DNA from: Natrinema hispanicum
GTDB lineage: Archaea; Halobacteriota; Halobacteria; Halobacteriales; Natrialbaceae
Assembly (NCBI RefSeq): GCF_900111485.1
Contig: NZ_FOIC01000010.1
Coordinates: forward strand, 62,001 to 126,000
Length of the DNA: 64,000 nt
Reading direction: 5' to 3'
Under the pieces are notes generated by a model that was given only the letters and a program-made list of their open reading frames with translations, was not told where the DNA came from and did no database searches. Below, one piece after another: positions 34,748-39,197 of the stretch (the stretch's first letter is position 1; every line of letters starts with the position of its first letter). The translations under genes and the position numbers were made by a program.

Positions 34748-34761
34748 TCACGGCCCCGTTC

Positions 34762-34785
34762 GGCACGCGGGTGCCTGCTTCTCTT
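34762..34785 (+). terminator. Candidate terminator of rpl11
   Basis: GGCAC-GCGG-GTGCC forms a 5-bp hairpin 15 bp after the stop codon, followed by TGCTTCTCTT. The hairpin is short, so the call is tentative. Confidence 0.4.
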
Positions 34786-35236
34786 GTGATGGTACCCGTA
34801 CAGTCGACCGACCATCGACGGTGGATACCTCGCACGTCGCAGCGTCTTTGCACGTGCGGACACATCACGTTGAACACACTCTCGAGTTCACAACGTGTTT
34901 TCACAGTGCTCGACGACCGAGCGTGTCGCCTGTAGAGCCCACCGCGATGGTGAGAGGTTCGGTTTGCGTCGTGACTACATCCGGCTGTAAGGGACTCAAT
35001 CGTCGTGTTCGTGTTGCTAGGCGTCAACTAGCCACGAGTACCTGTTCCGCTCGATAGACAGGTCGAACGCACGAGACCTAAAGCAGCAGGCCGCCAACTC
35101 GGCATCGCGTTCGTCTTCATTCTGCCATGTTCAGCGACGGTGAACGCGATTGAGCCGCTTTGGAAAGGGGTCAGTCCGCCCGGTTTGACCTGCTAGGAAA
35201 GTGATTCGGTGGCTAGGAGGAGAAGCTGTGACGAAT
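34786..35236. other. About 450 bp without a recognisable gene at the L11 side of the insert
   Basis: No frame here has a good start, haloarchaeal composition and length together. A small hairpin GCTAG-GCGTCAA-CTAGC lies near 35020. The region may contain remains of the junction of the insert between rpl11 and rpl1. Confidence 0.4.
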
Positions 35237-35659
35237 CTATTCCTGTTGTCCCTCGACGTGAAGGTCCTGTTCGACGACAGCGCGAACGCTTGGCCCTTCG
35301 AGACCGATCGTGACGGTATCAGTGACGACACCAGATTCCGCGTCAGTGAGCATGACCTCCACGGAGACTGGCTCCTCGAGCGAAATTGGCGGAGCCGGAT
35401 CAAATGCGAACGCGTCGGCGTCAAGTGTCGTTACCGTCATGTCTTCGAGTTGGGAATCCATCGTCACCGTCGCCTCCGATTCGGCGACCGGCTCCTGCAG
35501 GGCGGCACCCGCAACGGAGAGGTACGATTCGCTCTCAGACGTGTCGATGCTGGCCGTGTGGCCGGCACCGACACGGGAGACGCTGCCGGTCCCGACGAGA
35601 AGTGGAATCGATGACCCGGCCGCAAGCGCAGCGAACAGCCGCCGTCGTGTTAGGTTCAT
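35237..35659 (-). CDS. Tat-exported TasA/DUF1102-like surface protein
   Basis: The 140-aa product has a Tat-type signal (MNLTRRRLFAALAAGSSIPLLV), then a compact beta-rich domain with Thr/Val/Glu alternation (ATVTMDSQLEDMTVTTLDAD; VSVEVMLTDAESGVVTDTV). This is the outline of short camelysin/TasA- or DUF1102-type fibre subunits; the match is by pattern only. It is divergent from the NosL fusion gene and may share its 235-bp AT-rich control region. ATG at 35659 or 35662. Confidence 0.65.
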   Translation of the reverse strand: MNLTRRRLFAALAAGSSIPLLVGTGSVSRVGAGHTASIDTSESESYLSVAGAALQEPVAESEATVTMDSQLEDMTVTTLDADAFAFDPAPPISLEEPVSVEVMLTDAESGVVTDTVTIGLEGPSVRAVVEQDLHVEGQQE

Positions 35660-35893
35660 CATTCTGAAGTGAGCCGCTTCGTCTATTATGATCGTTGTGG
35701 TCCAACCGTCGAACAATCATTTGAAGAACCAGATATTTTCACAATAAAGTCTACTCATTCGAGATATACACCACAAATTGTTAATCAATATGGGCTGAAC
35801 CGCTCAATTACAGCATGGCGACAAACGACAGTCAACGGGCGATTCAGGCTCGACCGACGGAACGCTGCGGACGATCGACCGGGGGGATCTAGC

Positions 35894-37279
35894 ATGAAAC
35901 GACGTCTGTTCCTGTTTGGGTCGGCGACTGGTGGCGCTGGACTGCTGTTCGGCACAAGTGCATTCAGTGCGTCCGGTGTCGGCCACACCGTTTCGATCGG
36001 GACCGGAGACGGCCACTTTCACGTCGAACTAAACGACGACTATGCGGGAGACGCAAGCGAGTACGTCGTGGACACCAATCCAATCAGGCTGATTCTCGAC
36101 GACCTTCACAAGCACGGTTGGATTCGATTCGACGACCTGCTTCGGGTGACGAACACGGAAACGCAGCCGATCAACGTCCACGTCAAGGATCAGGACTGGC
36201 TCGGCGACGATACGGACGCTGTTCTCGATTATCGGTACGACGGCAGTTCGATCGTTGGCAAGGAAAACAGTGTCCCGCTCGAAGGTGTCTCGGGCGACAA
36301 CAGCATGCCGATCACTGTTCGCGCCGACACGACCGATCACGACGATCTTCAACAGGCCTTACCTGACGCTGAAGCCGACGATGGGGATCGAACTGTAATG
36401 TTCGTTGCCTCGCCCGGTGACGCTAACGGAGGAACTGGAGACGAGAGCGATGAAGAGGAGGTTACCAAAGGTGGCGAGAATCTCTCTGTCAGCGCGCCCG
36501 GTCAAGTCACCGTCGGCTCGGACAATCACTTCACCGCCACGGCGACCGTCTCCGACGGCGACTACAGCGGCGAGGCGACCGTGACCCTCAATGTGGAAGA
36601 CGAGCTTGTCGATGAACAGACCGTTACGGTACCCGAAGACGGACCAGCGGAAGCGACATTCGATGTCCCGACAGTCTATAACGATCTGGAGGAGGGGAAC
36701 ATCGTGACCGGCCGCCACGGTCCACTGCGCTTCGACGGAACCGACTGGTCGGCTGGGGTCGAATACGGCGAGTCGACGGCGGAGGCCAGCGGGACTCTGG
36801 AAGTTGAGGACGCGCCAATCACGTTCGGCAACGCAAAGTGTGCCGTCTGCGGAATGGATACGAAAATGTGGGATACTGCCCACGCGCAACTAACCCACGT
36901 GAACGGCGACCGGATGGAGTTTTGCTCCACTGGCTGTCTGGTTACCTACGCTGTCGACCCCATGAAGTACGACGGCAACCATGTTGATGTCCCCGATGAA
37001 CCAATTGAAGGGGCTTGGGTCGTCGACTACACCGACCTTGACAGCAGTGGCGAGCGCGCCGGCGACGGGACTGATCTCATCAACGCACACGAGGCGTACT
37101 TCGTCCTCGACTATGACACCTCATACGGGGCGATGGGCGGAAATCCACGTGCGTTTACTACCAACGACGACGCCGTCGGCTACGTCAACAGCGACGATGA
37201 CCTCGGTGAGGAAGCTATAATCACGTTCGACAACTTCGACGCCGGCATCGCTGAAAAATATCGCCCTAGATTCAACTAA
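35894..37279 (+). CDS. Surface protein with C-terminal NosL copper-binding domain
   Basis: The 461-aa product starts with a Tat-like signal (MKRRLFLFGSATGG, FGTSAFS). Residues about 30-175 form a DUF1102/TasA-like beta domain (FDDLLRVTNTETQPINVHVKD). An acidic linker (about 176-197) leads to an Ig-like domain (about 198-305), and residues 310-461 are a NosL domain: C316-x-x-C319-G-M321, C344/C348, M357, AYFVLDYD and the YGAMGG Met414. NosL is a copper(I) chaperone for nitrous-oxide reductase, normally a small lipoprotein; here it is joined to surface-type domains and has no nos genes nearby. Signal peptidase gene follows after 77 bp. Confidence 0.85.
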   Translation: MKRRLFLFGSATGGAGLLFGTSAFSASGVGHTVSIGTGDGHFHVELNDDYAGDASEYVVDTNPIRLILDDLHKHGWIRFDDLLRVTNTETQPINVHVKDQDWLGDDTDAVLDYRYDGSSIVGKENSVPLEGVSGDNSMPITVRADTTDHDDLQQALPDAEADDGDRTVMFVASPGDANGGTGDESDEEEVTKGGENLSVSAPGQVTVGSDNHFTATATVSDGDYSGEATVTLNVEDELVDEQTVTVPEDGPAEATFDVPTVYNDLEEGNIVTGRHGPLRFDGTDWSAGVEYGESTAEASGTLEVEDAPITFGNAKCAVCGMDTKMWDTAHAQLTHVNGDRMEFCSTGCLVTYAVDPMKYDGNHVDVPDEPIEGAWVVDYTDLDSSGERAGDGTDLINAHEAYFVLDYDTSYGAMGGNPRAFTTNDDAVGYVNSDDDLGEEAIITFDNFDAGIAEKYRPRFN

Positions 37280-37356
37280 GCATACCTGCTCCAGCACCGC
37301 GAGCCGCGCCGACCGCCGCTCGTCGGCGGCTGGCCGCTCTCGTAGACCGACACACC

Positions 37357-38442
37357 ATGATACTCCGAACTACCACACGGCTGCTCAAGATAATCTTGAT
37401 TCTCGCAGTTGCGGCGCTCCTTGTCGGCCAGTTACTCGGCCAGCCGATCCTGCTCGGCTACGTCACCAGCGACAGTATGGAGCCAACAATCGACGCCAAC
37501 GACGGCTTTGTCGCTGTTCCGGCCGCCGTCACAGGGGACCCGAGTCCGGGTGATGTCATCGTCTACGAGGCAACCGACGGCCAACTAGTAACCCATCGTG
37601 TTGTCAATGAGACCGCAGCCGGCTACGTAACACGTGGCGATGCGAACCCAGTGACCGATCAAGACCAGGGTGATCCACCCGTCACCGAGGATCGAATCGT
37701 TGCGAGGGCTATGCAACTCGGCGGAACGGTTCTCACGATCCCTGCGTTAGGAGCGGCAGCGGCCAACCTGGATGCGGCTGTGATTACCGCACAGCAATGG
37801 GTGTGGAACATGCCCGGCAGCCAGCTCAATGGTATCAACGGCGTCGCCACTGCGCTTCTCGTAATCTCGATCGTCGGGTACGCCGTCGAAACCGTCCGCG
37901 ACAGGGATCAGTCGGCGCTTGACACGCGAGAGCGAATCGACGAGCTGGATCCCAGTTTCCATCAGCTAGTTATCGCGTTCACACTCGTTATGATGGTCGG
38001 TGCGGCGGCAGCGATGCTTGTTCCCGCAGGAGCGCAATCGATGACACTCGTAAGCTCACAGCCGGCACCCGACGGTGATCTGATTGTTGAGCCCGGTGGG
38101 ACTACCGAGACGACGTATCGCATCTCGAATACCGGATTCACGCCGATCGTCGTCTACCTCGAGTCGAGCGAGGGAGTCACCCTCGAACGAGAGACAGTGG
38201 TCGTGTCGGGGAAAGATAGCACGGCCGTTGAGGCAACGCTCGAGGCACCTGAAGAAACGGGCCACTTCGAGCGATCGATCTACGAGCGACGGTATATCCA
38301 CGTGTTGCCGCGATCCGTGATCGGCTGGTTCTACGACGTTCACCCATGGCTGCCATACGGTATGATCGTCGCCTCGCTTGGCGGTGGCGCATACGTCTTC
38401 GGTCGCCTCCTCGTCATTGAGCAGATCCGTGATCGTGACTGA
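37357..38442 (+). CDS. Signal peptidase I (S26B, archaeal/ER type) with long C-terminal region
   Basis: The 361-aa product has an N-terminal anchor (about 9-32), nucleophile Ser40 in TSDSMEPTI, His80 in VTHRV replacing the bacterial Lys, and GDAN with Asp95. After the catalytic domain (to about 160) come two further spans, an external Ig-like domain (about 225-310) and a last span (about 335-355). The extension is unlike housekeeping signal peptidases. Location after two exported surface-type proteins suggests a dedicated processing enzyme, like SipW for TasA in Bacillus; that link is inference. Confidence 0.87.
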   Translation: MILRTTTRLLKIILILAVAALLVGQLLGQPILLGYVTSDSMEPTIDANDGFVAVPAAVTGDPSPGDVIVYEATDGQLVTHRVVNETAAGYVTRGDANPVTDQDQGDPPVTEDRIVARAMQLGGTVLTIPALGAAAANLDAAVITAQQWVWNMPGSQLNGINGVATALLVISIVGYAVETVRDRDQSALDTRERIDELDPSFHQLVIAFTLVMMVGAAAAMLVPAGAQSMTLVSSQPAPDGDLIVEPGGTTETTYRISNTGFTPIVVYLESSEGVTLERETVVVSGKDSTAVEATLEAPEETGHFERSIYERRYIHVLPRSVIGWFYDVHPWLPYGMIVASLGGGAYVFGRLLVIEQIRDRD

Positions 38443-38490
38443 ACCACCCGCTTACTAGATTCAACATTCGTCTGCGAACCGAATACAAGG

Positions 38491-38605
38491 CTTATACTGT
38501 CGGACAGCAGTCAGTGAGAAGTCGCTCGCGAAAACCGGCTGTTGCCGGCGATGACGGCCGAATATGAGCGAGCGATCTTCAAATAGTTCTGTCCGACAGT
38601 ATTAG
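38491..38605. mobile_element. Family 2 MITE-like element, intact copy
   Basis: The ends CTTATACTGTCGGACAG and CTGTCCGACAGTATTAG form 17-bp terminal inverted repeats with one mismatch. It is 115 bp long with no coding capacity. It lies between convergent genes at the L1 side of the insert. Confidence 0.82.
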
Positions 38606-38666
38606 AAAGAGTACCAAAGCAACAGCAACGGAGTGCGTCAGTGCTGCCTCGCGATTCACGAGAGCC

Positions 38667-39197
38667 TTATATTTTGTTCGCGGGCGGGACGGTTCGCTCG
38701 TCGGGTCGTGCCGTCCCAGCACTGCCAAACAGCACGCGAATGCTCGCACCGAGCCCGAGCGCGCCGGCGAGGCCAGCAACCGCGACAGTCGCCGGGAGCG
38801 CCAGCCCGGCGACCCCGCTTACGAGCGAGCCGACGACGATGCCGGCCCACAGCCGGTCGGTTCCGAACCGTGAGGCGATCGTCCGGCCGATCGCGGTGAG
38901 CCCGATCGCAAGCACCACCGGAATGACCGCCGCTCCGAGAATGACCAGCGGGATGCCGAAGAACACCCCGATACTGGTGTCGACGATGAGATAGCCCGTC
39001 CCCGCGAGAGCGCTGACGACGAGCAGACTCGGGCCCCCAATCCCGATCGAGATGACGGGACTCCGTCGCGATTTCCGTACCGCTTTGCTCCCGTAACGAT
39101 GGAGCAACCCGAGCACGATCGTCGTGACGAGCACAGCGACGGCGAACTGGATTCCAACCCGAACGAACGGCTCGAGCGATCGATACGCTGTGATCAT
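38667..39197 (-). CDS. Multi-span membrane protein of unknown function
   Basis: The 176-aa product has four or five hydrophobic segments rich in Gly, Ala, Ile and Val, with a short cytosolic basic loop (GSKAVRKSRRS, about residues 36-46). No family motif is seen. The ATG at 39197 is preferred; ATAGTATATAAG (39250-39261) lies about 55-65 nt upstream, giving a short leader. The remaining 39198-39420 contains only this promoter and AT-rich sequence. Confidence 0.72.
   Translation of the reverse strand: MITAYRSLEPFVRVGIQFAVAVLVTTIVLGLLHRYGSKAVRKSRRSPVISIGIGGPSLLVVSALAGTGYLIVDTSIGVFFGIPLVILGAAVIPVVLAIGLTAIGRTIASRFGTDRLWAGIVVGSLVSGVAGLALPATVAVAGLAGALGLGASIRVLFGSAGTARPDERTVPPANKI

Follow-up and report, generated by a model that had tools for sequence, protein, structure and literature searches.

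NosL and NosD are commonly counted among the factors of nitrous-oxide reductase, yet both occur in haloarchaeal genomes that lack this enzyme, where they have no known role. TasA and SipW of Bacillus make up a matrix fibre system. In Paracoccus, the CuZ site of NosZ has a dedicated chaperone in NosL, and Cu(I) binding by NosL is tied to a C-X-M motif, which in clade II proteins takes the form CXXCXM together with one more conserved Met (PMC6530538). Among haloarchaea, nosFY without nosZ was described in H. volcanii, and a NosD with an N-terminal NosL domain is annotated in Haloferax mediterranei (PMC9240420). TafA is the core component of haloarchaeal Tat-fimbriae (Galeva et al. 2025, iScience 28:111793, as cited in PMC12687288).

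The DNA analysed here, a stretch of 64,000 nucleotides from Natrinema hispanicum (the window), carries a gene in which a NosL domain is fused to an exported N-terminal part, next to a divergent gene for a small exported protein and a signal peptidase gene. The coordinates, lengths and motifs given in the original prediction, including the 461-aa fusion ORF and the 77-bp gap, were all correct on re-checking, and the features are as follows.

35237–35662, minus strand: small Tat-type exported protein (tat_small), 141 aa, divergent partner, conserved beside the fusion
35770–35783, plus strand: promoter-like element ACCACAAATTGTTA, conserved, some 125 nt ahead of the start of the fusion, from aligned divergent intergenic regions
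35815–35892, plus strand: 25-codon upstream ORF with its stop 1 nt before the fusion start, conserved in position
35894–37279, plus strand: TafE-like/Ig-like/NosL fusion protein, 461 aa, from profile and alignment evidence
35894–36418, plus strand: Tat-type signal (MKRR...GTSAFSA) and TafE-like N-domain, residues 1–175, from NCBIfam TafE and a PDB 9p0a profile match
36476–36808, plus strand: Ig/CARDB-like linker domain, residues about 195–305, from Foldseek
36830–37273, plus strand: NosL domain, residues about 313–460, from Pfam NosL and Foldseek
36839–36856, plus strand: CAVCGM, Cu-site motif with C316, C319 and M321, from alignment
36923–36937, plus strand: CSTGC, with C344 and C348, from alignment
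37133–37135, plus strand: Met414, the second NosL methionine, from alignment
37357–38442, plus strand: archaeal/SipW-type S26 signal peptidase, 361 aa, with an outer Ig-like domain and a C-terminal TM, from TIGR02228

Domains of the fusion protein and its partners

The C-terminal domain, which makes up a third of the fusion, was assigned by profile and by predicted fold. Residues 313–432 match NosL (PF05573, Pfam) at E 9e-12, with 45.9 bits against a gathering cut-off of 24, and the best Foldseek match of the AlphaFold model of the fusion (mean pLDDT 67.7, moderate confidence) was 7osg_H, the NosL chain of the NosDFYL complex (E 4.5e-5, prob 1.0, TM-score on target 0.72). Residues C316, C319, M321, C344 and C348 are invariant in an alignment of 18 fusions and lipoproteins, all of which have a Met at or beside the M414 position. 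By profile and by comparison of the predicted model, the domain is a NosL domain, complete in its copper-site residues as had been predicted (CxxCGM, C344/C348, Met414), and the prediction thus came through the profile and structure searches that had been set in advance as a way to refute it.

The N-terminus bears a twin-arginine, GTSAFSA-type signal (Tat-type), in agreement with the Tat-like signal originally proposed. The domain that follows had been called DUF1102/TasA-like; neither family gave a Pfam or NCBIfam match at E ≤ 1, and the domain is best described instead as related to TafE of the haloarchaeal tafi system. It matches NCBIfam TafE (NF052522, 'fimbrial adapter protein') at E 3e-13, with 49.9 bits against an equivalog cut-off of 155, and is therefore a relative of TafE, not TafE itself. 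After removal of the signal peptide the match remained (E 6.6e-10 for the window's fusion, E 1.8e-7 to 6e-13 across five divergent fusions), which argues for homology of the mature domain and not of the signal alone. A profile built from 18 sequences matched the solved 'Pilin' chain 9p0a_C (PDB) at E 4e-4 over the signal and N-domain, and a paralogue encoded in the window's own genome matched this chain at E 4e-12. No TafA above cut-off was found in any of the 12 fusion genomes, where TafA matches were sub-threshold and mostly confined to the signal region. Between the N-domain and NosL, Foldseek with the AlphaFold model matched the linker to the CARDB Ig-like domains 3idu and 2kl6 (prob 1.0), as expected from the Ig-like domain first proposed, and by alignment this domain is common to the fusion and to NosL lipoproteins.

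The peptidase gene begins 77 bp after the fusion, and its product scores 59.9 against TIGR02228 (archaeal signal peptidase I), above the cut-off of 51.85, and 39.8 against SipW (NF046067, E 3e-10), below the equivalog cut-off of 190, with Ser40, His80 and Asp95/Asp101 invariant in an alignment of 9 homologues. Its earlier description as an archaeal signal peptidase is upheld by the TIGR02228 score, and the second small Tat-exported protein was likewise located divergently upstream, where it had been placed. The mature start of the latter, GHTASIDT, resembles GHTVSIGT of the fusion; searches gave no Pfam or NCBIfam family and no convincing PDB relative for tat_small, and its AlphaFold model (pLDDT 34) offered no usable fold.

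Upstream of most fusion genes, and also of a second copy in L073, the element ACCAnAAnTTGTTA keeps a fixed spacing of about 125 nt from the start. A role in a shared copper regulon was rejected, since ACCANAANTTGTTA has one exact match in the genome, namely the element before the fusion. A half-site, TTGTGGT, is present in the opposite orientation, towards the divergent gene. In 9 of 13 fusion genes, one of them in another family, the upstream ORF opens with an ATG at −79 and has its stop at −1. The few differences among close relatives show no preference for third codon positions, so that the place of this ORF is conserved and its peptide apparently is not; a conserved peptide was rejected on these grounds, and the arrangement perhaps reflects a leaderless start with translational coupling.

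Distribution, mobility and nos genes

Searches covering 125 Natrialbaceae genomes and 392 genomes of the order identified the full fusion in 11 further genomes, comprising 10 other Natrialbaceae (3 from the same genus as the window and the others from genera g12, g14, g15, g17 and g21) and one member of another family (G185). At 12 of 12 loci the fusion is flanked by tat_small and S26, so that both the proposed co-occurrence of this domain order with an adjacent S26 peptidase across haloarchaea and the neighbourhood of the three genes, a further preset test, held in every fusion genome. A DUF5305 gene, identified by Pfam in L073, is present at 8 of the 12. Genes for nosL and nosD adjoin the module at 6 of 12 loci, accompanied by nosF and nosY at 1 of the 6, and no nos genes were seen beside it in the window or at the 5 other loci; the earlier remark that no nos genes are near is thus right for the window and wrong for half of its relatives. 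Most nos-linked loci also encode one or two further NosL proteins that share this Ig-NosL head; those aligned have a lipobox-like Cys. In G098, a NosD protein with a NosL-like N-domain stands on either side of the fusion cluster (L073:5625-7544 and L073:16544-18439). In G097 (L072:7578-10261), gaps with repeated sequence fall inside two NosL genes, and the exact gene structure there is unsure. Elsewhere in the window's genome, at loci L079 and L080, TafE-like proteins without NosL are accompanied by a DUF5305-like protein and by an S26 whose outer domain is similar, which makes the fusion locus look like a tafi-type locus to which a copper head has been added.

The position of the trio points to its movement between sites. 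In the window and in L044 and L045 it lies between rpl11 and a gene for a 202-aa membrane protein, followed by rpl1-rpl10-rpl12, and in five module-free Natrinema the membrane gene directly adjoins both rpl11 and rpl1. In Haloterrigena sp. H1 (G021) the rpl11 site is empty and the trio is on another contig. Insertion at the rpl11 site, together with presence elsewhere in a genome whose rpl11 site is empty, indicates that the three genes move as a unit. A MITE-like inverted-repeat element of about 110 bp, at 38490–38605 just after S26 (TIR ACTGTCGGACAG, TTA duplicated at the ends), is one of roughly a dozen such related elements in this genome; its absence from the same site in L045 marks it as a recent insertion. 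It was ruled out as the carrier of the module, because L045 has the module without the element. In a tree of the NosL heads, lipoprotein and TafE carriers are intermixed, with at least 2 carrier changes forced by well-supported branches and with long-branch placements unsure; as judged from this tree, Ig-NosL heads have been swapped between fimbrial-adapter and lipid-anchored carriers.

NosZ (PF18764) was found in 40 of 125 Natrialbaceae genomes and in 0 of the 11 Natrialbaceae fusion carriers, the window genome included (hypergeometric P 0.012, ignoring kinship). A protein search of these 11 with Natrinema NosZ, run with 3 positive controls, returned short cupredoxin-like partial matches only; the twelfth carrier, G185, has NosZ by protein search. 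The window genome, which is without nosZ, holds a nosL, nosY, nosF and nosD set at L081:7625-11888, in which NosD has an N-terminal NosL-like domain. No fusion module was found alongside the canonical nosZ-nosD-nosF-nosY-nosL cluster of a NosZ-bearing Natrinema.

Proposed function and alternative readings

The preferred reading, given a probability of about 0.5, is that these three to four genes form a mobile module which displays a Cu(I) chaperone at the cell surface on a tafi-like adapter and supplies a NosL/NosD route for which nitrous-oxide reductase would not be needed. In the steps that we infer (export, S26 cleavage, fimbrial attachment, copper binding, hand-over and fibre formation), the 461-aa fusion would be exported through Tat and cut by the adjacent SipW/archaeal-type S26 peptidase, its TafE-like N-domain would attach it to a tafi-like surface structure or to tat_small, and the Ig-like domain would hold the NosL domain outward. 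NosL would then bind Cu(I) via C319/M321/M414, aided by C316/C344/C348, and Cu(I) would be handed to NosD and to NosL lipoproteins anchored in the membrane, to serve an extracellular cuproprotein that is not nitrous-oxide reductase.

Sequence evidence strengthens the surface-chaperone reading through the domains (NosL by profile and fold with copper residues kept, the TafE family in five fusions, the pilin match), the intact peptidase residues, the gene set at 12/12 loci, co-mobility, the link to nosL/nosD at 6/12, head exchange and the lack of nosZ in 11 carriers, and it suggests that the cell surface is where copper is captured or handed on, with no dependence on nitrous-oxide reductase. The reading is weakened by the TafE score of 50 against 155, by the lack of any TafA over cut-off in the 12 genomes, by nosZ in G185, by the 6/12 loci without adjoining nos genes, by a NosL frameshift in L045 (below) and by the model pLDDT of 67.7. 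The surface copper-binding fibre or patch with its own peptidase that had originally been envisaged thus keeps its NosL domain and its S26 neighbour, found at 12/12 loci, and loses its TasA basis, which is replaced by the relation to TafE. A more far-reaching form, in which a fimbria-like archaeal filament decorated with NosL captures Cu(I) at the outer surface and passes it between like domains until it reaches NosL lipoproteins and NosD, in the service of cuproenzymes other than NosZ, as a metal-relay appendage, is speculative and rather unlikely.

The alternative that survives best is compatible with a copper role and rivals the fimbrial part only: the TafE-like domain would be a surface anchor or a partner of tat_small, and the two proteins would make up a soluble or patch-like complex processed by the module's peptidase. 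Carriers have no TafA above cut-off, the module forms a full set in which no major pilin is recognisable, and tat_small accompanies every one of the 12 loci, all as such a complex would have it, but the domain's family is named for fimbrial adapters and a solved pilin was matched, and the absence of a fibre is regarded as possible, if doubtful.

Copper defence, in which surface NosL heads would scavenge excess Cu(I) outside the cell, draws on a predicted exported protein with a copper-chaperone domain and on several loci at which multiple NosL heads are stacked in tandem, sponge-like. It is held to be improbable, since neither an exporter nor a regulator for copper could be recognised next to the inspected loci, where the neighbours are nosL/nosD, assembly factors, and since a promoter element with one exact genome match gives no sign of a shared copper regulon. 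Equally hard to favour is a NosL domain that takes no part in copper delivery and instead forms the structural or adhesive tip of a tafi-like fimbria or binds a different metal. The two Cys pairs of the fusion NosL recall YHS/FCS zinc fingers, and weak YHS and zf-FCS matches (Pfam, E about 0.2) cover the same residues. In N. hispanicum DSM 18328 (L045:10417-10761), two indels shift the frame in the NosL part of the fusion and leave the N-domain and S26 intact, which could mean either that the NosL part is dispensable or that the sequence is faulty (pseudogene or sequencing error). The copper-site residues, however, are kept throughout 18 divergent sequences, with the second Met at or beside M414, and half of the loci adjoin nosL/nosD. 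That the fusion is one more NosL, a maturation factor loading NosZ at the cell surface, is the least probable reading, because, for all the Paracoccus precedent (PMC6530538), the adjoining nosL and nosD at 6/12 loci and the nosZ of G185, all 11 Natrialbaceae carriers are without NosZ by family and protein search with positive controls found, and the canonical nos cluster of a NosZ-bearing Natrinema has no module beside it.

On the surface-chaperone reading, the module offers a concrete, testable answer to the presence of NosL and NosD without nosZ, namely extracellular copper handling on an archaeal surface without a bacterial-type periplasm, and would, if true, give Tat-fimbriae-like structures a metal-handling function.

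Comparison with known systems

Like Bacillus TasA/SipW, the locus pairs an exported beta protein with an S26 peptidase of the SipW/ER type, but the fusion differs in its Tat-type signal, its metal-chaperone head and the lack of a TasA match. The tafi system (TafA/TafC/TafE) is closer: the fusion has a like Tat-type signal with a GTGAFSA-like end and a TafE-related mature domain, and TafE-family paralogues in the same genome have S26 and DUF5305-like genes as neighbours, an arrangement that the fusion shows in most relatives, although it falls below the TafE equivalog cut-off, its carriers have no TafA over cut-off, and it adds Ig-like and NosL domains that are absent from the 176-position TafE model. 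The NosL of nitrous-oxide reductase (structures 7osf/7osg) provides the same domain, with the clade-II CXXCXM and the second conserved Met, whereas the fusion has a fimbrial-adapter-like domain in place of the lipobox and a second CxxxC pair, and most of its carriers are without nosZ. NosD/NosDFY adjoins the fusion module at 6/12 loci, and haloarchaeal NosD may itself bear an N-terminal NosL domain, but the Natrialbaceae fusion carriers have no NosZ. No report of a NosL/TasA fusion, or of any NosL fusion in archaea, was found in the literature searched, with most subscription journals and preprints outside its reach. All parts of the locus belong to known families; their combination, a fimbrial-adapter-like domain with a NosL head and its own peptidase, in mobile form, was absent from the papers searched.
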